Assembly: GCF_014400405.1 (NCBI RefSeq)
Contig: NZ_CP060496.1
Span: 1,054,001-1,118,000, forward strand
DNA from: Brachybacterium sp. Z12
Lineage (GTDB): Bacteria; Actinomycetota; Actinomycetes; Actinomycetales; Dermabacteraceae
Length of the DNA: 64,000 nt
Direction: 5' to 3'
Position numbers and translations under genes: made by a program. This document shows, in pieces, positions 41,314 to 55,419 of this stretch; the stretch's first letter is position 1, and each line of letters begins with the position of its first letter. The notes under the pieces are model-generated. The model saw nothing but the letters and a program-made list of their open reading frames with translations, did no database searches and was not told the origin of the DNA.

Positions 41314-41654
41314 CGGGTCCGGACTCGATCCCCGGCGACGTGGACCCCGCGGTGGCCCACGCCCGGGAACTGCTGCTGGAGGAGCGGCGGAGCATCGACA
41401 ACATCGATGCCGCGCTCGTGCATCTGCTGGCCGAACGCTTCTCCCACACCCAGAGGGTGGGCGTGCTCAAGGCTGAGCACGGGCTGCCTCCCGCTGACCC
41501 GTCCCGTGAACGCGAGCAGGTCGCTCGCCTGCGAGACCTCGCGGACCAGGCAGGCCTGGACCCCACCTTCGCCGAAGCCTTCATGCGCTTCATCGTCACC
41601 GAGGTGATCCGCCACCACGAGCGGATCCGCGATCAGGGCCCGACCGAGATCTGA
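41310..41654 (+). CDS. Chorismate mutase, AroQ class
   Basis: 114-residue helical enzyme for chorismate to prephenate. The first helix has [26 protein letters not shown] with the active-site Arg; [23 protein letters not shown] follows. The start overlaps clpX (ATGA), so the two are co-translated although their roles differ. The N-terminal 25 residues before RRSID are an extension. Confidence 0.87.
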
Positions 41655-41691
41655 GCCCGCACCCTCCGGTTCTCTGCACCAGGTTGATAGC

Positions 41692-44600
41692 ATGGCCGGC
41701 ATGGCTCGCATCACGTTCCTCGACTGGCCGGTGGTCCGGCAGCTCCGTGGGGCGGATCCGACGGGCCGCGGCACCTCGGTCACCTCGGCGAGGACCCGGG
41801 ACACCGCCCCTCGCACCGGCTCGGCCGATGGCGTAGCGGACAGCATCTGCCCGTACTGCGCAGTCGGCTGCGGGCAACGGGTCTTCCACAAGGACGGCAA
41901 GGTCATCCAGATCGAGGGGAACCCGGATTCTCCGGTGTCCCGCGGCCGCCTGTGCCCCAAGGGCGCGGCCAGCCAGCAGCTCGCGAACTCCTACCTGCGA
42001 CAGACGAAGGTGCGCTACCGCCGCCCGTACGCCACCGAGTGGGAGGACCTCGAGCTCGACACAGCGATGGACATGATCGCTGATCGCTTCATCGCCTCCC
42101 GCCGCAAGCACTGGGAGGACGAGGACGACCAGGGCCGGCCCCTCAAGCGCACGATGGGCATCGCCAGCCTCGGCGGCGCGACCATCGACAATGAAGAGAA
42201 CTATCTGATCAAGAAGTTCTTCACGGCCGCGGGTGCCATCCAGATGGAGAACCAGGCCCGCATATGACACTCCGCCACGGTTCCCGGTCTGGGAGCCTCG
42301 TTCGGTCGTGGCGGTGCCACGCAGTCCGTCCAGGACTTCGCCAATGCGGACCTCATAGTCATCGAGGGCTCGAACATGGCAGAGGCCCATCCGGTCGCCT
42401 TCCAATGGGTGATCGAGGCGAAGAAGCGCGGCGCACGGGTGATCCATGTGGATCCTCGCTTCACCCGCACCTCTGCGAATGCTGATCGGCACATCCCGAT
42501 CCGTGCCGGCACCGACATCGTGCTGCTCGGCGGCGTGATCCGGCATGTGCTCGACAACGAGCTGTACTTCAAGGAGTACGTCCAGGCCTACACCAACGCC
42601 TCGACGATCATCTCCGAGCAGTACGCCGACCCCGAGGACCTCGACGGCCTGTTCTCCGGCTACCACGCCGACAGCGGGACGTACGACAACAGCGCCTGGG
42701 CCTATGCCGGGGACGAGGACAGCATCGCGCGCGGCATGCCGGAGCGGGACGAGACCCTCCAGCACCCGCGCACCGTGTTCCAGCTGCTGAAGCGCCACTA
42801 TGCGCGCTACACGCCCCAGATGGTCCAGGACACCTGCGGCATCTCCCCGGAGGATTTCGAGCACCTCGCGACCTCGATCGCGGAGAACTCGGGGCGAGAG
42901 AAGACCACGATGTTCGCCTACGCACTGGGCTGGACCCAGCACCAGGGCGGAGCGCAGATGATCCGGACCTCCGGCATCCTGCAGCTGCTCATGGGCAATA
43001 TGGGGCGCCCGGGCGGAGGCATCATGGCGCTGCGCGGGCACGCCACGATCCAGGGCTCGACCGATATCCCCACGCTCTACCACATCCTTCCCGGCTACCT
43101 GCCGATGCCGAAGGTGGGCCAGGACGACTTCGCGGAGTTCACCCGCGCCATCGGGAAGAAGGAGCAGAAGGGCTTCTGGGCGGACGCGGACATCTACACC
43201 GTCAACCTGCTCAAGGCGTGGTGGGGCGAGCACGCGACCGCCGAGAACGACTGGGGCTACCACCACCTGCCGAAGCTGACCGGCGCGCACGGCACGTACC
43301 AGACCACGATGCGGATGCTCGAGGGCGGGGTCGACGGATTCTTCCTCTTCGGCCAGAACCCGGCTGTCGGCTCCGCGAACGGCCGGCTCCAGCGCCTGGG
43401 CATGTCGCACCTGGAATGGATGGTGGTGCGGGACTTCTACATGATCGAGTCCGCCACCTGGTGGCGGGACGGCCCGGAGATCGAATCCGGGGAGCTCACC
43501 CCGGAGCAGATCGCCACCGAGATGTTCTTCCTGCCGGCTGCGAACCACACGGAGAAGGCGGGCTCCTTCACCCAGACCCAGCGCATGGTGCAGTGGCGCG
43601 ACCAGGCGGTCGAGCCACCGGGCGACGCCCGCAGCGACCTGCAGTTCATGTACGAGCTGGGCTGCCGCATCCGGGAGAAGCTCAAGGACTCGACCGACCC
43701 CCGTGACCGGGCGATCCTCGAGCTCACCTGGGATTACCCGGTCAACGAGCACGGCGAGCCGGACGCCGAGGCGGTGCTGGCGGAGATCAACGGCCGTCAT
43801 CTCAGCGGGGAGAAGGCCGGGCAGCCGCTCGCCTCCTTCGGCGAGATGAAGGGTGATGGCTCCACCCTCGGCGGCTGCTGGATCTACACCGGGGTCTATG
43901 CGGACGGCGTCAACCAGGCACGGCGCCGCCGGCCGGGACAGGACCAGGACGAGACCGCCGCCGAATGGGGTTGGGCCTGGCCGGCGAATCGTCGGATCCT
44001 CTACAACCGAGCCTCGGCCGACCCCCAGGGCCGCCCGTGGAGCGAGCGGAAGAAGCTCGTGTGGTGGGACGAGGAGGCCGGCAGCTGGACCGGTCATGAC
44101 ATCCCCGACTTCCCCCTCACGAAGCGCCCGGACGATCCTGGCGACCCGAGCCAGGGCGGCGTCGCGGCGCTGTCCGGCACGGATGCGTTCACCATGCAGT
44201 CCGACGGTCGCGGCTGGCTGTTCGCTCCCACCGGGATGGTCGACGGCCCGATTCCGACGCACTACGAGTCGCCGGAGTCGAACATCCGCAACCCGCTGTA
44301 CGCGCAGCAGTCCAACCCCACCAGGGTCACGTTCCAGGACGAGGACAACCTCAGCTCGCCTGGAGCGATGGGCGCAGGCGGCGAGGTCTACCCGTACGTG
44401 TTCACCACCTACCGGATCACCGAGCATCACACGGCCGGCGGCATGAGCCGCTTCCTGCCCTATCTCGCGGAGCTGCAGCCCGAGATGTACTGCGAGGTCT
44501 CTCCGGAGCTCGCCGCAGAAGTGGGCCTGGAGCCCTACGGCTGGGCGACGATCATCTCGGCGCGCAGCGCGATCGAGGCGAAGGTCCTGATCACTGAACG

Positions 44601-44997
44601 GATGAAGCCCCTGCAGGTGGGCGATCAGGTCGTCCACCAGATCGGGCTCCCGTTCCACTGGGGGCAGGGCACCGAAGCGATCGTCCGCGGTGACGGCGCC
44701 AACGACCTCATCGGGATGAACCTCGACGCCAACACCCAGATCCAGAACAGCAAGAACAACTCCTGCACCCTCATTCCAGGGCGCCGGCCCCGGGGCCCGG
44801 AGCGCGGGGAGCTGGTGGAGTCCTACCGTCGCCGTGCCGGGCTGATCATGTCGGAGGATCCGGCGGTGGACGGTGCCGCGGGCGCCCCGGGTGCCGGTCC
44901 GGCCGATGGTTCCGTCCCGCACGAGGTGCGAGGTCCGGAGGAGGCCAGCGCGGTGCCCAGCGGAGAACGCTCGATGAAGGAGATGAAGGATCGATGA
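41692..44997 (+). CDS. fdhA: Selenocysteine-containing formate dehydrogenase, catalytic subunit
   Basis: 1101-residue molybdenum/tungsten bis-MGD enzyme that oxidises formate to CO2. The N-terminal cluster motif is CPYCAVGC with a fourth Cys in GRLCPKGA. An in-frame TGA at 42265-42267 is selenocysteine 192 (context NQARI-U-HSATVPGLG), and the same frame runs on to 44997 without interruption. The metal ligand position agrees with E. coli FdnG/FdoG-type enzymes. A hairpin immediately downstream fits a bacterial SECIS. There is no Tat motif at the N terminus, unlike FdnG, so the enzyme probably faces the cytoplasm. Its stop overlaps fdhB, and sel genes follow. Confidence 0.93.
42268..42314 (+). 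promoter_or_regulatory. SECIS hairpin for the fdhA selenocysteine
   Basis: A lower 7-bp stem (CCGCCAC 42272-42278 with GTGGCGG 42308-42314) and an upper 7-bp stem (GGTTCCC 42279-42285 with GGGAGCC 42291-42297) enclose a GGTCT apical loop at 42286-42290. A 10-nt unpaired stretch lies on the 3' side. GGTCT is the loop bound by SelB in E. coli fdhF, also 18 nt past the TGA there, as I recall it. Confidence 0.85.
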
Positions 44998-45995
44998 GCC
45001 TGCTCTCAGGACCTGAGGGACCCGCCGCGGATGCCGGCTGGGAGCACGAGCACGAGCGCAAGGGCTTCTTCACCGACACCTCGATCTGCATCGGCTGCAA
45101 GGCCTGCGAGGTGGCGTGCAAGGAGTGGAACCGCAACCCCATCGACGGCAACCTGGAGATCCTCGGCTCGAGCTACGACAACACCGGCGAGCTCGGGGCC
45201 AACACCTGGCGCCACGTCGCGTTCATCGAGCAGAGCCAGGAGCGCATCGAGGAGGCTCGCGAATCGGGCCGCAAGCTGGTCAGCCTCGGCATGCCCGGGA
45301 TCGGCCCGAAGTCCTCGGGCACCCGCGGCGCGCTGCCCGCCGGTGACCTCTCCTCCTCGGACCTCACCCCACCGGACACCCCCGAGTTCCGCTGGCTGAT
45401 GTCCTCGGACGTCTGCAAGCACTGCACCAATGCCGGCTGCCTCGACGTCTGCCCGACCGGTGCGATCTTCCGCTCCGAGTTCGGTTCCGTGGTGGTGCAG
45501 GAGGACGTCTGCAACGGCTGCGGCACCTGTGTGAGCGCCTGTCCCTTCGGTGTCATCGAGCGCCGGGACGACGGGACCATCTCACCGTTCGCGCACCGCG
45601 AGGACAAGGTCGAACGCATGGGCACGGCCAGCAAGTGCACGCTGTGCTACGACAAGATGGTCGACGGGCAGGAGCCCGCCTGCTCCGCGACCTGCCCCAC
45701 CCAGTCGATCAAGTTCGGTGATCACCCCGACCTGACCGCAGAGGCGCAGCAGCGGGTCACCGATCTCCATGAGCGCGGCATGACCGAGGCACGCCTCTAC
45801 GGCGCGAACCCGAAGGACGGCGTGGGCGGCACCGGATCGGTGTTCCTGCTGCTGGACGAGCCCGAGGTCTACGGCCTCCCGCCGGACCCGCAGGTGCCCA
45901 CCAAGTCGCTGCCGCAGACCTACGCCACCGCGGGGATCGCCGCCGCGGGCATGATCGCCGCCGTCGCCCTCTCCTTCCTGGGATCACGCCGATGA
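44994..45995 (+). CDS. fdhB: Formate dehydrogenase iron-sulfur subunit
   Basis: 333-residue ferredoxin-like electron-transfer subunit. Four Cys motifs can carry four [4Fe-4S] clusters: CIGCKACEVACKEWN, CKHCTNAGCLDVCP, CNGCGTCVSACPFGV and CTLCYDKMVDGQEPACSATCP. The insertion between the first two motifs is long. A single C-terminal membrane helix (TAGIAAAGMIAAVALSFLG) anchors it, as in FdoH. Overlaps fdhA and nrfD by ATGA. Confidence 0.92.
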   Translation: MSLLSGPEGPAADAGWEHEHERKGFFTDTSICIGCKACEVACKEWNRNPIDGNLEILGSSYDNTGELGANTWRHVAFIEQSQERIEEARESGRKLVSLGMPGIGPKSSGTRGALPAGDLSSSDLTPPDTPEFRWLMSSDVCKHCTNAGCLDVCPTGAIFRSEFGSVVVQEDVCNGCGTCVSACPFGVIERRDDGTISPFAHREDKVERMGTASKCTLCYDKMVDGQEPACSATCPTQSIKFGDHPDLTAEAQQRVTDLHERGMTEARLYGANPKDGVGGTGSVFLLLDEPEVYGLPPDPQVPTKSLPQTYATAGIAAAGMIAAVALSFLGSRR

Positions 45996-47107
45996 GCATC
46001 ACCGATTTCGACGCGGACCGTCCGCCGCAGCCGCCGCGCCGACGCCGCCGGGGCGGGGGCCGCCGGCGACGCAGCCTGAACGAGGTCGGCATGGGAGACG
46101 GCTCCCGCGAGGGCGCCGTCGTCGAGGACGTCGAGTTCACCCGCTCCGACGAGTTCGACTCCTACTACGGCCGGCCCGTCGTGAAGGCCCCGCCGTGGAA
46201 GGGGCCGATCGCGATCTACCTCTTCCTGGGCGGGGTCGCCGCCGGCTCGGGGATGCTGGCCTTCGGGGCGCAGTGCACCGATCGCCCGGTGCTGCGGCGC
46301 AATGCTCGCCTGACCGCGCTGGGCACGGTGGGGCTGGGCACCCTCGCCCTGATCGAGGATCTGGGACGCCCGGAGCGCTTCTTGAACATGATGCGCACCG
46401 TCAAGGTGACCTCCCCGATGAGCCTGGGCACCTGGATCGTCGGCGGGTTCGCCAGCTTCTCCGGCGTCCTCGGCGCGCTCGAGGTGGACCGCATGACGGG
46501 GCAGCGGCTCCCGCTCGGCGTGCTGCGCCCTCTGCTGGGCGCTGCGGAAGTCCCCGCCGCACTCGCGCAGGTGGCCCTCGCTCCGGTGCTGGCCTCGTAC
46601 ACGGGCGCGCTGCTGGGCAACTCCGTGGTGCCCACCTGGGAGGCCGGCCGCGGCCACCTCTCGTACCTCTTCGTCTCCTCGGCGAGCCTCGCCGCAGGCG
46701 GCGCGGCGATGGTCACCAGCCCCGTCGCGGAGACCGGGCCGGCGCGTCTGCTGGCCACCGCCGGGGTGGTCGGGGATGTCGTCTCCATGAACCGCATGAA
46801 GGAGTCGATGCACCCGCTGGAGGCCGAGCCGCTCGAGACCGGGCGGCCCGGGACCATGCTGAAGTGGGCCGAGCGTCTCGCGATCGCCGGTGGCATCGGC
46901 ACCGTGCTGGGCGGCCGCAACCGGTGGATCGCCGCGGCGAGCGGGGCCGCCCTGCTGACCTCCTCGGCGCTGACCCGCTTCGGGGTGCTCCATGCCGGGC
47001 TCGAGTCGGTCAAGGACCCCCGCCGCGTCATCGAGCCGCAGAAGGCGCGCCTGGCGGCGCGCCGTGCTTCCGGCATCACCGACGACTCGATCAGCACCTC
47101 CGGCTGA
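45992..47107 (+). CDS. NrfD-type membrane subunit of formate dehydrogenase
   Basis: 371-residue integral membrane protein with about eight to nine helices after an Arg-rich cytoplasmic start. The PAIYLFLGG-like segment IAIYLFLGGVAAGSGML and the LGRPERFLNMMRTVKVTSPMSLGTWI stretch are the NrfD/PsrC signature. It passes electrons to the quinone pool and replaces the cytochrome b subunit (FdnI) of the E. coli enzyme. Convergent with selD, only 18 bases away. Confidence 0.88.
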   Translation: MSITDFDADRPPQPPRRRRRGGGRRRRSLNEVGMGDGSREGAVVEDVEFTRSDEFDSYYGRPVVKAPPWKGPIAIYLFLGGVAAGSGMLAFGAQCTDRPVLRRNARLTALGTVGLGTLALIEDLGRPERFLNMMRTVKVTSPMSLGTWIVGGFASFSGVLGALEVDRMTGQRLPLGVLRPLLGAAEVPAALAQVALAPVLASYTGALLGNSVVPTWEAGRGHLSYLFVSSASLAAGGAAMVTSPVAETGPARLLATAGVVGDVVSMNRMKESMHPLEAEPLETGRPGTMLKWAERLAIAGGIGTVLGGRNRWIAAASGAALLTSSALTRFGVLHAGLESVKDPRRVIEPQKARLAARRASGITDDSISTSG

Positions 47108-47125: not shown

Positions 47126-48142
47126 TCAGCGCACGTCGATGCCGGACCCCTCGACGGTCTCTCCGATGATCGGGTAGCCGGGGACCTCACCGATCACCAG
47201 CAGACCGCCTGAGGTCTGGGCGTCGGCGAGCAGCAGCAGATCCTCCTCGCCGATGCCGGCGCCCGCGCGCACGTCCTCGCGCACCCAGTCGAGGTTCCGC
47301 CGCGTCCCACCGGAGACGTATCCGTCGCGCAGCGCCTCGGCGGCGCCCTCCACCAGCGGCACCGCAGCCCGGTCGATCACCATGCCCACCCCGGAGGCGC
47401 GGCCCATCTTGAACAGGTGCCCCAGCAGACCGAAGCCGGTGACGTCGGTCGCCGCCTTCGCCCCTGCGGCAAGAGCGGCCTTCGAGGCATCGCGGTTCAG
47501 CTGCGTCATCGTCTCGATGGCGGCGCTGGAGACCTCGCCGGTGGACTTGTGACGATTGTTCAGCAGGCCCACCCCGAGCGGCTTGGTGAGGGTGATCGGC
47601 AGTCCCGCCTCGGCGGCGTCGTTACGCAGCAGGCGGTCCGGATGCGCGGTGCCGGTGACGGCCATGCCGTACTTCGGCTCCGGGTCATCGACAGAATGCC
47701 CGCCGATCACCGGAACACCAGCCTCCTTCGCGATGGCGAGGCCGCCGGCGAGCACCTCCTGCAGCAGCTCGTAGGGGAGCACCGAGCGGGGCCAACCCAC
47801 CAGATTGATCGCCACCACCGGGTCGCCGCCCATCGCGTAGATGTCCGAGAGGGCGTTGGCGGCGGCGATGCGCCCCCAGTCGAAGGCGTCGTCCACCACG
47901 GGGGTGAAGAAATCAGCGGTCGAGAGCACGGCGATCTGCCCGTTCTCGCCGATCCGCACCGCCGCGGCGTCATCACCGTCCTCCAGGCCGACGATCACCT
48001 GCTCGTACTGCTGACCGGCGAGGGTGGAGACGACCTCCTCGAGCTCGCCCGGCGGGATCTTCGAGGCGCAGCCGCCGCCGTGCGCCATGGTGGTCAGTCG
48101 GATCGCGGGCTGGGCCACAGGACGGATCGGGGAGTCGCTCAT
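47126..48142 (-). CDS. selD: Selenide, water dikinase (selenophosphate synthase)
   Basis: Makes selenophosphate, the selenium donor for Sec-tRNA. 338 residues. The active-site motif is AHGGGCASKI with C25 and K28, so this SelD uses cysteine and is not itself a selenoprotein. Further motifs are GLEDGDDAAAVRI, STADFFTPVVDDAFDWGRIAAANALSDIYAMGG and GGHSVDDPEPKYGMAVTG, and the C domain starts at DVTGFGLLGHL. Intact, and divergent from selC/selA/selB. Confidence 0.95.
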   Translation of the reverse strand: MSDSPIRPVAQPAIRLTTMAHGGGCASKIPPGELEEVVSTLAGQQYEQVIVGLEDGDDAAAVRIGENGQIAVLSTADFFTPVVDDAFDWGRIAAANALSDIYAMGGDPVVAINLVGWPRSVLPYELLQEVLAGGLAIAKEAGVPVIGGHSVDDPEPKYGMAVTGTAHPDRLLRNDAAEAGLPITLTKPLGVGLLNNRHKSTGEVSSAAIETMTQLNRDASKAALAAGAKAATDVTGFGLLGHLFKMGRASGVGMVIDRAAVPLVEGAAEALRDGYVSGGTRRNLDWVREDVRAGAGIGEEDLLLLADAQTSGGLLVIGEVPGYPIIGETVEGSGIDVR

Positions 48143-48215: not shown

Positions 48216-48310
48216 GGAGGCGTACGTGTCCTGGTGGGCGCCCCGGTCTTCAAAACCGGTGAGACCGAGCATCTCGGTCTGGCGGGTTCGATTCCCGTCC
48301 GCCTCCGCCA
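48216..48310 (+). tRNA. selC: tRNA-Sec (TCA)
   Basis: 95 nt with encoded CCA. The acceptor has seven canonical pairs (GGAGGCG/CGCCTCC) and a T-C mismatch at the eighth. The D arm is a six-pair stem around a four-base TGGT loop, typical of tRNA-Sec. The anticodon is TCA in CTTCAAA. An eight-pair variable arm (AGACCGAG/CTCGGTCT) and a T arm with TTCGATT complete it. It lies 53 bases before selA. Confidence 0.95.
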
Positions 48311-48362: not shown

Positions 48363-49702
48363 GTGCCCGTGCCCCCGCAGCCCGGCGAGGAGAGCACGGA
48401 CCCGCGCCGTCGGATCCCGCGCACCGACCAGCTGCTGGCCCATCCCGACATCGCAGCCGCAGCGGCGACGATGAGCGAACGCGTGGTGGTGGGCATCGTG
48501 CGCGCGGTCCAGGACCGCGCCCGGGCGGGAGAGATCACCCCGAACAGGTGCAGGAGCAGATCCTCGCCGCCCTCGGCGATCGTCCCGCCGCGTCCCTGCG
48601 CCCGGTCCTGAACGCGACCGGTCATCGTCCACACCAACCTCGGCCGGGCGCCGCTGTCTGCGGCCGCGCGCACAGCGCTGCAGGATGCCGCCGGGTACAC
48701 CGACGTCGAGTTCGACCTCGGCTCCGGGGCCCGCTCCCGCCGCGGCGCCGGGGCGCGGGCGGCGCTGCTGGCCGCCTGCCCCGAGGCCGAGGACGCGCTG
48801 GTCGTGAACAACGGGGCGGCCGCCCTGCTGCTGGCCGTCACAGCACTGGCCGGGACCGGAGAGGTGGTGCTCAGCCGAGGGGAGATGATCGAGATCGGTG
48901 CCGGCTTCCGCCTGCCGGACCTCATCACCTCGACCGGCGCGCGCCTCCGCGAGGTCGGCACGACCAACCGCACTCACCTCGCCGACTACACAGGAGCGAT
49001 CGGCCCCGGGACCGGCTGCGTGCTGCGCATCCACACCAGCAACTACCGCGTCATCGGCTTCACCTCCGAGGTGGCCCTGCGCGAGCTCGCCGGCCCCTGC
49101 CGGGAGGCCGGAATCCCGCTGATTGCGGATCTCGGCAGCGGCCTGCTCGCCCCCGAGCCACAGCTGCCGGACGAACCCGACGCCGCCACCGCCCTGCGCG
49201 ACGGCGCGGATCTGGTCATCGCCTCCGGCGACAAGCTGCTCGGCGGCCCGCAGGCCGGGATCCTGCTGGGCGACGCCGAGGTCATCGCGCGCCTCGCCCG
49301 GCACCCCCTGGCCCGGGCCGTGCGCGCGGACAAGCTCACCCTCGCCGCGCTCGAGGCGACCCTCACCGGGCCCCTTCCCCGGTGCTCGAGGCGCTGCGCC
49401 AGGACTCGGTCACGCTGCGTGAGCGCACCGAGAGCCTCGCCGGACAGATCGGCGGGCGCGTGATCGCCCACGAAGGCCGGGTCGGTGGCGGGGGAGGAGC
49501 CGAGGTCCCGCTGCCCGGCTGGGCGCTCGCCCTCGAGCCCGAGCTCGCGGCCCCGCTGCGCACCGGCGAGCCGGCGGTCGTCGCCACCGTGCGGGACGGT
49601 GACTGCCTGCTGGATCTGCGCTGCGTGCCCGTTGCCGAGGATGAGCGTCTCGTCCGGGCGGTGACCGCGGCCCGCGAACGCCTGCAGCAGAATTCTCGAT
49701 GA
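48363..49702 (+). CDS. selA: L-seryl-tRNA(Sec) selenium transferase (three frameshifts)
   Basis: PLP enzyme that converts Ser-tRNA-Sec to Sec-tRNA-Sec using selenophosphate. Motifs are RPVLNATG followed by IVHTNLGRAPLS, NNGAAALLL, RGEMIEIGAGFRLPDL, EVGTTNRTH and the PLP lysine in ASGDKLLGGPQAG. The start is GTG 48363 or 48369 behind GGAGG. The frame is broken at 48538-48541 (one C missing), 48620-48623 (probably two bases, GT, missing) and 49371-49374 (one C missing); repaired it has about 447 residues. If these are real, Sec synthesis would fail. I expect errors, since every segment between the breaks is conserved. Stop overlaps selB. Confidence 0.85.
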
Positions 49703-51489
49703 TGCAGGTCATCGCCACCGCCGGCCATGTCGACCACGGCAAATCAACCCTCATCCGAGCTCTCACCGGGATCGAGCCGGATCGGCTCGACGAGGAGAAG
49801 CAGCGCGGGCTGACCATCGATCTCGGCTTCGCCTGGACCGCGCTGCCCTCGGGCCGCGAGGTGTCCTTCGTCGACGTCCCCGGTCACGAGCGGTTCCTCG
49901 GCAACATGCTCGCCGGCCTCGGCCCCGCCCCGATCGTGTGCTTCGTGATCGCGGCGGATGAGGGCTGGCAGGCGCAGTCCTCCGACCACCGCGACGCGAT
50001 CGCGGCACTCGGCATCGACCAGGGCCTCATCGTCGTCACCCGCGCGGACCTCGCCCCCGACCGGGTCGAGCAGGTCATCGCCGAGGCCCGCACGGAACTG
50101 GCGCGGACAGGTCTCGCCGGTGCGCCCGCCGTCGGCGTCTCCGCAGTCACCGGCCAGGGCCTGGACGAGCTGCGGGACCTGCTCGACACCGTCACCCGCA
50201 ACGCCCGTGCACCGGCGACCGATCAGCGCGTGCGCCTGTGGGTGGACCGCGCCTTCTCGATCTCCGGGGCAGGCACCGTGGTCACCGGCACCCTCACCGG
50301 CGGCATCCTGCGCCGCGAGGACCGCCTCGCACTGTGCAGCGCTGATCGCAGCGCAGAGGTCGTGGTGCGCGGCCTCCAGAGCCGGGGCGGATCGCTCGAG
50401 CAGCTCGGGCCGGTCAGCCGTGCCGCGGTGAATCTGCGCGGAGTGAGTACTGAGGAGATCGGTCGCGGCGACGTGCTGCTCACCCCGGACGCCTGGGAGC
50501 TCGTGCATCTCCTGGACGTGCGCCGCAGCACCGGGGCGTTCCTCGAGGATGCCCCGCAGCAGCTGGTGGCCCACATCGGCACCGCCGCGGTCGGGGTGCG
50601 CGTGCGCCCGCTGGGTCCCGACCACGCACGCCTCACCCTGGACCGCCCGCTCCCGCTCCAGCTCGGGGACGACCTGGTGCTGCGCAGCAGCGGCAGCCAC
50701 TCGGTGCGCAACGGCGTGCAGGTGCTCGATCTCGACCCGCCCTCCCTCGAGCGGCGCGGTGACGGCGCGCGGCGACGCGTCGTGCTCGAGCAGATGCCGC
50801 TCGGCGGCGACCTCGCCGTCGAGGTGCGGCGCCGCGGCGCGGTGCGTGCCTCCCTCCTCCTCCGCTACGGGATGACGTTGCCGACCCCGCTGCCGGAGAC
50901 GGTGCACCGACACGGCGACTGGCTGGTGGATTCGGAGGCGAGGGAGGGCTGGACGCAGCAGCTCGGCACGCTCGTCGCCCAGCACCGTCGAGCCGATCCG
51001 CTCACCGCCGGGCTGCCGCGCAAAGCCGCGATCGATGCACTCGCGCTGCCCGACGAAGCGCTGCTCGACCTGGTCGTGGCCGCTGCCGGACTCACCCAGC
51101 ACGAGGGTCGGGTGCGCGATGCGGACTCGGGCCAGGATCTCGGCGCCGCCGAGACCGGCGTCCGCACGCTCGAGGAGCGACTCGCCCGATCACCCTTCGC
51201 CGCGCCGGAGGCCGACGATCTCGCCGCGCTGGGACTCGGGCCGAGAGAGCTCGCGGCAGCAGCCGCGCAGGGACGGCTGCTGCGCCTGCCGGACGAGGTG
51301 ATCCTGCTGCCCGCGGCGCCCGCGCTGGCGATGCGCGTGCTCGCCGCGCTGCCGCAGCCCTTCACCACGAGCGAGGCCCGGCAGGCGCTCGCGACCACTC
51401 GCCGAGTCGCGATCCCGCTGCTCGAGCATCTCGACAGCCGCGGCTGGACTCGCCGCCCGGATCCCGGCCACCGCGAGGTCATGCGCTGA
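49699..51489 (+). CDS. selB: Selenocysteine-specific elongation factor SelB
   Basis: 596-residue GTPase that delivers Sec-tRNA to UGA codons by binding the SECIS. G1 is GHVDHGKSTLI, the Thr of G2 is in GLTIDLGFAW, G3 is DVPGHERFL, and the G4 NKxD is replaced by TRAD. Domains II and III follow (GAGTVVTGTLTGG). The C-terminal winged-helix region from about residue 400 contacts the mRNA hairpin. Length matches bacterial SelB; intact. Start ATG 49699 overlaps selA by ATGA. Confidence 0.93.
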   Translation: MMQVIATAGHVDHGKSTLIRALTGIEPDRLDEEKQRGLTIDLGFAWTALPSGREVSFVDVPGHERFLGNMLAGLGPAPIVCFVIAADEGWQAQSSDHRDAIAALGIDQGLIVVTRADLAPDRVEQVIAEARTELARTGLAGAPAVGVSAVTGQGLDELRDLLDTVTRNARAPATDQRVRLWVDRAFSISGAGTVVTGTLTGGILRREDRLALCSADRSAEVVVRGLQSRGGSLEQLGPVSRAAVNLRGVSTEEIGRGDVLLTPDAWELVHLLDVRRSTGAFLEDAPQQLVAHIGTAAVGVRVRPLGPDHARLTLDRPLPLQLGDDLVLRSSGSHSVRNGVQVLDLDPPSLERRGDGARRRVVLEQMPLGGDLAVEVRRRGAVRASLLLRYGMTLPTPLPETVHRHGDWLVDSEAREGWTQQLGTLVAQHRRADPLTAGLPRKAAIDALALPDEALLDLVVAAAGLTQHEGRVRDADSGQDLGAAETGVRTLEERLARSPFAAPEADDLAALGLGPRELAAAAAQGRLLRLPDEVILLPAAPALAMRVLAALPQPFTTSEARQALATTRRVAIPLLEHLDSRGWTRRPDPGHREVMR

Positions 51490-52742: not shown

Positions 52743-55419
52743 TCAGCCCTGGTTCCGCGGCTGCTTGACCGGCGGCTCGCCGAGCTCGACGTCGCGGGTG
52801 AGGATCTCCTCGCCCTCGCCGACCACCAGCTCGAGCTTCTCGATCCGGCCCAGGGCCGTGAGGTCCGCGGAGGCGGCCTCGAGATGTGCGAGAGCGGCCG
52901 GCGGTGCCACCACCGTGACGGACAGGATGGGGGTCTTCTGCGAGACCTTCGCGTCGGACTTGATGCGCCGCAGCGTGATCGCGGCCTGTGCCACGGAGTC
53001 CACCAGCGCCGCATCTTGACCGGCTGCGGCCTCCTTCAGCGGGCCCGCCTCGGGCCAGGGCTGGGTGTGCACGCTGCCGCCGCGCCACCACGACCAGACC
53101 TCCTCGGTCGCGAACACGACCACGGGGGCGAACAGGCGCAGCAGCACCTCGAGCGTGATCGCGAGCGAGGCGCGGGCCGAGGCGGCGCCGGCCTCCCCGG
53201 CGGGGGAGTTGCCGTGGGCGCGCTCCTTGGCCAGCTCGATGTAGTCATCGCAGAACGCCCAGAAGAACGGCTCGATGACCTCGAGGGCCCGGGCGTAGTC
53301 CATGTCGTCGTGGGCCGCGGTCGCCTGCTCCACCACCGTGGCCAGCTGCGCGAGCAGGGCACGGTCCAGCGGGTCGGTGACCACCGACGGATCCGCAGCC
53401 AGACGCCCGGAGGGATCCGCAGGCGCCTCACCGAACCCGAGGGCGAACTTCGAGGCGTTGAGGATCTTGATCGCCAGACGGCGACCGATCTTCATCTGCC
53501 CCTCATCGAACGCGGTGTCCACACCCTGACGGGCCCGGCCGGCCCAGTAGCGCACGCCATCGGAGCCGTGCTGCTGCAGCAGCCCGATGGGGGTGACCAC
53601 GTTGCCCTTGGACTTGGACATCTTCTTGCGGTCCGGGTCCAGGATCCAGCCGTTGATCGAGGCATGCTTCCACGGCAGCGAATCCTGCTGCAGGTGGGAG
53701 CGCACGATGGTGGAGAACAGCCAGGTGCGGATGATGTCGTGGCCCTGGGGGCGCACATCCATCGGGTAGACCTTCTCGAAGAGCCCGTCGGCCTCCGCGC
53801 CGGAGTTCCAGCCGCCTGCGAGCTGCGGGGTCAGCGAGGACGTGGCCCAGGTGTCGAGGATGTCGGGATCGGCGACGAAACCGCCCGGCTGATTGCGCTG
53901 CTCCTCGGTGTACCCGGCCGGCACATCGATCGTGGGGTCGATCGGGAGGGACTCGACGGGCGGGGTGAGCACGGTGTCGTAGTCGGTCTCGCCGTCGGCG
54001 CCCACCGCGTACCAGATCGGGAACGGGACGCCGAAGAAGCGCTGGCGGGAGATCAGCCAGTCACCGGCCAGGCCCTCCACCCAGTTGCGGTAGCGGGACT
54101 CCATGTACGCCGGGTGCCAGGTCAGCTCTCGCGGCCGCGCTCGATGAGCGCATCGCGCAGACCGCCCTCGGACTGATCGCGGCCGCCGTTGGTGAGGTAC
54201 CACTGGCGGGACGTGACGAACTCGAGCGGCTTGTCGCCGTTCTCGTAGAACTTCACCGGGTGGGAGATCTTCTCGATCTCGCCGGTGAGGTCCCCGGACT
54301 CGGTCGCCATCTCGACCACGCGCTTCTGGGCGCTGAACACCGTCAGGCCGGCCAGCTCGGAGTAGCGCTCCTGGCCTTCCGGGGTGGAGATCCACGGCGC
54401 CTCGGCGAGGAACCGGCCGTCACGGCCGATCACGGACCTAGTGGGCAGCTCGAGCTCACGCCACCAGGTCACATCGTTGGAGTCGCCGAAGGTGCAGATC
54501 ATGGCGATGCCTGCGCCCTTGTCGGGCTGGGCGAGGGAGTGCGCGAGCACAGGCACCTCGACCCCGAACAGGGGAGAGGTCACGGTGGAGCCGAACAGGC
54601 CCTGGTAGCGCTCGTCGTCAGGTGGGCCACCAGCGCCACACAGGCCGGCAGCAGCTCGGGACGGGTGGTCGCGATGACGACCTTCTCGCCGGAGCCGTCA
54701 GTCCTGGTGAAGCCGAGGCGGTGGTAGGCCCCGTCGCGGTCGCGGTCCTCCTGCTCGGCCTGGGCCACCGCGGTGCGGTAGGTGACGTCCCACATGGTGG
54801 GGGCCTCGGACTGGTACGCCTGACCGGCCTCGAGGTTCTCGAGGAAGGCCCGCTGCGAGGTCGCGCGGGAGTGGGCGTTGATCGTCTGGTAGCTGTAGTT
54901 CCAGTCCACCGAGAGGCCCAGGGTGCGGAAGACGTCCTCGAAGGACTTCTCGTCGATCTCCGTGAGCCGCTCGCACAGCTCGATGAAGTTGCGCCGTGAG
55001 ACGGGCAGCTGGTTCGCGGCCTTAGAGGACTTGTTGTCGCCGCCCTCCTGCGGGGGCGTGAAGTCCGGGTCGTAGGGCAGGGACGGGTCGCAGCGCACGC
55101 CGAAGTAGTTCTGCACCCGGCGCTCGGTGGGCAGGCCGTTGTCGTCCCAGCCCAGCGGGTAGAACAGGTTCTTGCCGCGCATGCGCTGGTAGCGCGCGAT
55201 CATGTCCGCCTGCGAATAGCCGAAGACATGGCCGATGTGCAGCGAGCCGGATGCCGTGGGCGGCGGGGTGTCGATGCTGAAGACCTGGTCACGGGTGGTG
55301 TCCGGATCGAAGGCGTAGAGCTGCTGCTCGCTCCATACGCCGTCCCACTTCTCCTCCAGGCCCTCGAGGGAGGGGCGGTCGGGGATCGTGGAGCCAGGGC
55401 GCGGTGCGGTATCGGTCAT
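52743..55419 (-). CDS. valS: Valyl-tRNA synthetase (two frameshifts)
   Basis: Class I aminoacyl-tRNA synthetase, about 892 residues repaired. GSLHIGHVFGY near residue 60 is the HIGH site; WDDNGLPTERRVQNYFGV follows; KKMSKSKGNVV is the second signature; an editing domain lies between and a coiled C terminus closes the protein. The frame breaks near 54619-54623 (VALVAH should continue PDDERYQGL) and near 54122-54131 (RGRE should continue LTWHPAYMESR). Both flanks align with the family. It is essential, so these are almost certainly errors. ATG at 55419. Confidence 0.92.

Follow-up and report, generated by a model that had tools for sequence, protein, structure and literature searches.

The gene fdhA (41692–44997, + strand) very probably encodes a selenocysteine (Sec)-containing formate dehydrogenase alpha subunit, with the UGA at codon 192 decoded as Sec. 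It lies in the 64 000-nt stretch of Brachybacterium sp. Z12 DNA analysed here (the window, from whose first base all positions are counted). Judged from sequence comparison, Sec is by far the best reading of that codon. In its favour we count the alignment with proteins of known structure, the codon found at the same site in relatives, a hairpin downstream of the codon, the sel genes that score over their cut-offs, the co-occurrence of tRNA-Sec with genes of the TGA type, and the shared absence of fdhA and selA from one genome of the genus (G007), which has no tRNA-Sec over cut-off. Against it we count the frame changes in selA, the unexceptional stability of the hairpin and one genome (G226) in which the gene and the tRNA do not go together. 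What is directly observed is the codon with its homology to Sec/Cys sites, the conservation of the hairpin, and the presence and co-occurrence of the decoding genes.

The frame from 41692 to 44997 contains exactly one internal TGA, at codon 192 (42265–42267, +), the codon predicted to be read as Sec. Translating it as U gives a protein of 1101 residues up to the final stop, which is a TGA as well. The initial annotation had described two open reading frames, 41692–42267 and 42376–44997, as sharing a frame and joined by a TGA at residue 192. The translation bears this out, with a single frame on both sides of codon 192, position 42376 being merely the first start codon taken by the ORF lister past the TGA. 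The three motifs said to flank the site, CPYCAVGC, NQARI and HSATVPGLG, are likewise all present in the read-through protein. In profile searches, read-through FdhA exceeded both curated cut-offs along its full length, with 1811 bits for NF041513 (cut-off 1400) and 937 bits for TIGR01553 (cut-off 814). Its top matches in the PDB were 1h0h_A, at 714 bits, and E. coli FdnG (1kqf_A), at 691 bits. In each case the alignment passes through codon 192, where the PDB chain has an X, which we take to be Sec. Because of these profile scores, and because the alignments to 1h0h_A and 1kqf_A run through the site, the join of the two frames is more than chance. The TGA thus aligns with the Sec/Cys site of the formate dehydrogenase-N alpha family, as had been proposed, and the alignment with FdnG, suggested as a check, placed no residue other than Sec or Cys at position 192. 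An open frame of 1108 residues also runs antisense to fdhA (41596–44922, −); the sequence being GC-rich, this is probably a mirror frame.

A tblastn search for the codon at this site covered 140 loci: 30 of the genus, the 30 best of the class search, and the best 80 of 165 relatives in named genomes. One locus (L180) gave no tblastn match. Among the 139 placed loci, whose rows are not independent, since one of them (L030) belongs to the window itself and genomes of the genus recur among the named loci (L102 and G014, for example), the codon was TGA in 111, TGC in 24 and TGT in 4. Every placed relative therefore has either TGA or a Cys codon at the site, and in the genus the codon was TGA at all 30 placed loci, the window's own among them. 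Seven of the 37 genus matches had no locus, and for these the evidence is one TGA within the matching first part. Among the best 80 of the 165 relatives, the best-matching named records were Brachybacterium, B. massiliense being the nearest, and the NF041513 family includes TGA members and Cys members alike. A single-strand motif search for the site was discarded in favour of tblastn, having placed 17 of the 30 genus loci, put 3 in false places and left 10 unmatched.

A SECIS-type hairpin is located at 42279–42297 (+). Counting from the U of the UGA, nt 15–33 form a seven-pair stem and a five-base loop, GGTCT, which holds G23 and U24. Identical 48-mers were collapsed, leaving 72 distinct sequences from TGA genes and 27 from Cys genes. 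The loop G23-U24 was present in all 72 of the former but in only 3 of the 27 latter; 486 of 504 stem cells were paired in the TGA genes, compared with 114 of 189 in the Cys genes; and all seven pairs were formed in 54 of 72 TGA sequences and in none of the 27 Cys sequences. A hairpin with a G-U in its loop, lying just 3′ of the UGA and conserved together with the TGA, is thus present, as is characteristic of bacterial SECIS elements. In E. coli (NC_000913), both fdnG, with its UGA at codon 196, and fdhF, with its UGA at codon 140, have the same GU at nt 23–24.

The stem varies somewhat among the TGA genes. Pair 18–30 was U-A in 45 sequences, C-G in 15, U-G in 9, G-C in 2 and unpaired in 1, and pair 15–33 was unpaired in 12 of 72. 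Pair 17–31 tracks the codon at +10: it is U-G where that codon specifies Ala, U-A where it specifies Thr or Ile, and an unpaired U-U in five Ser rows. Sliding the 3′ arm by 1–3 bases reduced pairing in the TGA genes from 0.964 to 0.29–0.68. When columns were shuffled, the observed pairing was reached in 0 of 2000 shuffles for the TGA genes (shuffle mean 0.914) and in 1902 of 2000 for the Cys genes. As the column shuffles take no account of kinship, more weight rests on the comparison with the Cys genes, although some amino acids differ in these genes, most of which are without Pro at +6. The contrast is also seen in GC3, which in TGA versus Cys genes was 0.24 and 0.96 at codon +5, 0.00 and 0.78 at codon +7, and 0.38 and 0.81 at codon +9. 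Set side by side, the 72 TGA and 27 Cys sequences of this single family therefore give a plain view of SECIS constraint at synonymous sites. The window's own 56-nt stretch showed no excess stability (z 0.44, 137 of 200 shuffles folding equally well), and we therefore relied on the comparison across genes.

Further subunit genes and the sel genes lie downstream of fdhA. The iron-sulfur subunit gene fdhB (44994–45995, +) has Fer4 domains, its TIGR01582 score of 165 bits being under the cut-off of 334.7, and fdhC (45992–47107, +) encodes an NrfD-type membrane subunit (PF03916, 73.7 bits). Next come selD for selenophosphate synthetase (47126–48142, −; TIGR00476, 374 bits, cut-off 125) and selC for tRNA-Sec with anticodon TCA (48216–48310, +; RF01852, 81.5 bits, cut-off 47, the Rfam match ending at 48306). 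These are followed by a frame-changed selA for selenocysteine synthase (48375–49702, +; profile pieces in two frames) and by selB for the Sec-specific elongation factor (49699–51489, +; TIGR00475, 255.7 bits, cut-off 242.25; winged-helix domain PF09107). Of the Sec-decoding set, selB, selC and selD are thus present, each over its cut-off. Upstream of fdhA lie clpX and a chorismate mutase gene. The central claim of the initial annotation, that the TGA is selenocysteine, gains support from the 139 of 139 relatives with TGA or Cys at the site, from the hairpin, and from the adjoining tRNA-Sec, selD, selB and frame-changed selA.

The gene and the Sec machinery also tend to occur together. Members of the fdhA family were found in 37 of 38 genomes of the genus (the window's included), and selA over its cut-off in 37 of 38. 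The sole genome without either, G007, has no tRNA-Sec over cut-off, which would fit a joint loss of the Sec trait or a late gain of the trait elsewhere. The tRNA-Sec was over its cut-off in 35 of the 38, the other genomes being G007 and the fragmented G027 (750 contigs) and G032 (410 contigs). For the 295 genomes of the class, the Rfam cut-off of 47 bits admitted many lower matches as tRNA-Sec (118 of 295 genomes), and a line at 66 bits was set post hoc, after a gap between 66.8 and 55.2 bits had been seen. By this line (66 bits or more), tRNA-Sec was present in 64 of the 65 genomes with a TGA-type gene over cut-off, a type that rests on the placed codon in 15 of them and on ‘one TGA inside’ in the others. 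It was present in 2 of 16 genomes with Cys types only (G209 and G309), and in 9 of 214 genomes without an fdhA gene over cut-off, one of which (G097) has a below-cut-off fragment of a TGA-type gene. The sole exception among the 65 is G226, which has a TGA-type fdhA (contig C43) yet no tRNA-Sec over cut-off.

In the class comparison, the Cys-type fdhA of G281 (L087) has TGC at the site plus one TGA elsewhere in the match, and was counted in the Cys group on the strength of its site codon; the extra TGA may reflect a damaged gene, a sequence error or another recoded site. G316 and G138 each have one stop-free match and one with a single TGA, both over cut-off. These could be a Cys version and a Sec version of the same enzyme side by side, a reading that comes from the matches themselves, the TGA copies having no loci.

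The selA gene is difficult to reconcile with a working system if its sequence is taken at face value. A first piece, 48408–49367, scores 346.8 bits (cut-off 267.9) and contains one internal TGA, while a second, 49376–49663, scores 27.6 bits in a different frame, placing a frame change near 49380. A three-frame reading suggests what are apparently two more, offsetting changes near 48540 and 48625, and the only other selA match in the genome scores 19 bits. Such changes, if real, would mean that Sec synthesis has been lost. We see little chance that they are real and that the UGA-bearing fdhA, the SECIS hairpin, selB, selC and selD have been kept without a working Sec synthase; were this so, we would be looking at an early snapshot of trait loss, or at Sec-tRNA made via another route. 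Very little chance is given to the Sec system decaying in this strain such that selA is truly broken and UGA 192 ends translation, leaving only a 191-residue fragment of FdhA. In that case the intact hairpin and the open frames of fdhA, selB and selD would be unexpected, and frame changes are in any case spread over the window.

This spread was measured with genes of two relatives, G014 and G010, picked by codon usage and used as probes. Window genes changed frame in 12 of 54 cases by G014 and in 13 of 55 by G010, compared with 0 of 58 between the two relatives in either direction. Those affected include the trigger factor gene. In addition, valS (52746–55419, −), missed by the codon-usage count, is in three pieces in three frames, and a profile search of the genome found no valS match over cut-off elsewhere, a strong sign of assembly indels. 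The genome itself, a single 3.51-Mb contig, received a completeness score of 85.7%. Because the frame changes are spread over the window while none was seen between the relatives, assembly error is the likely cause of the selA damage, assembly indels being a much likelier explanation than real change. The genome sequence thus appears to contain many small errors, and gene calls from Brachybacterium sp. Z12 need careful treatment.

In the genus search, selA of G003 was also split between frames, and that of G004 was matched as two pieces in a single frame. G003, in which both fdhA and selA are frame-changed, was considered as a decaying Sec system, but this was dropped because other G003 genes change frame too (4 or 5 of 53 by two references, three of them neither fdhA nor selA). 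Two other measures of integrity were also set aside. A test with all long ORFs was polluted by mirror-frame ORFs, the sequence being GC-rich, and showed changes between the relatives as well (1 of 53 and 3 of 46 genes), and gap counts in DNA alignments at 81–86% identity were too noisy.

An assembly that appears error-rich might also be thought to have turned a Cys codon into TGA 192, but the errors observed shift the frame and do not substitute bases, all 30 placed genus loci, the window's own included, have TGA, and the window carries the hairpin kept in TGA genes, so that we regard the chance of such an error as negligible. Organism-wide reading of TGA as an ordinary amino acid, for which we found no supporting point, has next to no probability given that tRNA-Sec, selB and selD adjoin the fdhA operon, that fdhA itself terminates at TGA, and that site codons are limited to TGA or Cys, with the hairpin accompanying TGA.

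Under the Sec reading, the ribosome would read the UGA at codon 192 of fdhA as Sec by a route that can be sketched by analogy with known relatives, as can the metal ligation and the electron path. Selenophosphate would be made by SelD, and seryl-tRNA-Sec would be converted to Sec-tRNA-Sec through SelA. SelB, bound to the hairpin, would then deliver the charged tRNA to the ribosome; the hairpin's stem starts 11 nt past the UGA, and its loop contains the G-U at nt 23–24. In the finished enzyme, Sec would ligate the metal of the pterin cofactor, and, in a complex of FdhA, FdhB and FdhC, electrons taken from formate would travel via iron-sulfur clusters to the NrfD-type membrane subunit.

E. coli FdnG (1kqf_A; NC_000913 b1474) aligns over residues 51–1018, through the Sec site, and its gene shares the GU noted above. 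The two systems differ in that the window's membrane gene matches NrfD, and in that the window's FdhA has no twin-arginine motif near its start. FdnG presumably carries such a twin-arginine export signal. The NCBIfam model NF041513 (formate_DH_Act) describes the actinobacterial family that holds the window's FdhA, and a Sec formate dehydrogenase with an internal UGA is a well-known arrangement (NF041513; PMC2830990, as excerpted). Formate dehydrogenase alpha and SelD are named as the most widespread bacterial selenoproteins in the excerpt of PMC5029168. In Corynebacterium aurimucosum ATCC 700975, fdnG with an internal UGA, fdxH, selA, selB, selC and selD are described in one region, and the fdnG product was proposed as a Sec enzyme (PMC2830990, excerpt). 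A UGA-bearing alpha gene and selABCD in one region are therefore common to that species and the window; it belongs to another genus, and its gene names and order are taken from this description.

Actinomycetospora chiangmaiensis DSM 45062, in which formic acid removal in culture depended on selenite, has a comparable cluster, FDH1 (PMC7176365, excerpt). As given there, the cluster has a Sec FdhA, FdhB and FdhC of lengths similar to those in the window and lists SelA and SelB, as in the window; it also includes a permease gene, and SelD is listed without a cluster label. That species has three Sec formate dehydrogenase systems in the same account, compared with a single gene that passes the family cut-off in the genome of strain Z12. 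A literature search, judged by titles and the starts of abstracts, returned nothing on Brachybacterium selenoproteins. Within the library so searched, the gene appears undescribed for the genus, yet it is an ordinary member of a known enzyme type. Its analysis settles the annotation of fdhA and leads to the prediction that Brachybacterium has a formate dehydrogenase dependent on selenium, leaving knowledge of Sec decoding itself unchanged. Elsewhere, a distant family match at G321:C104:17851–18636 (134.7 bits, below cut-off) has one internal TGA and is perhaps a second Sec oxidoreductase.
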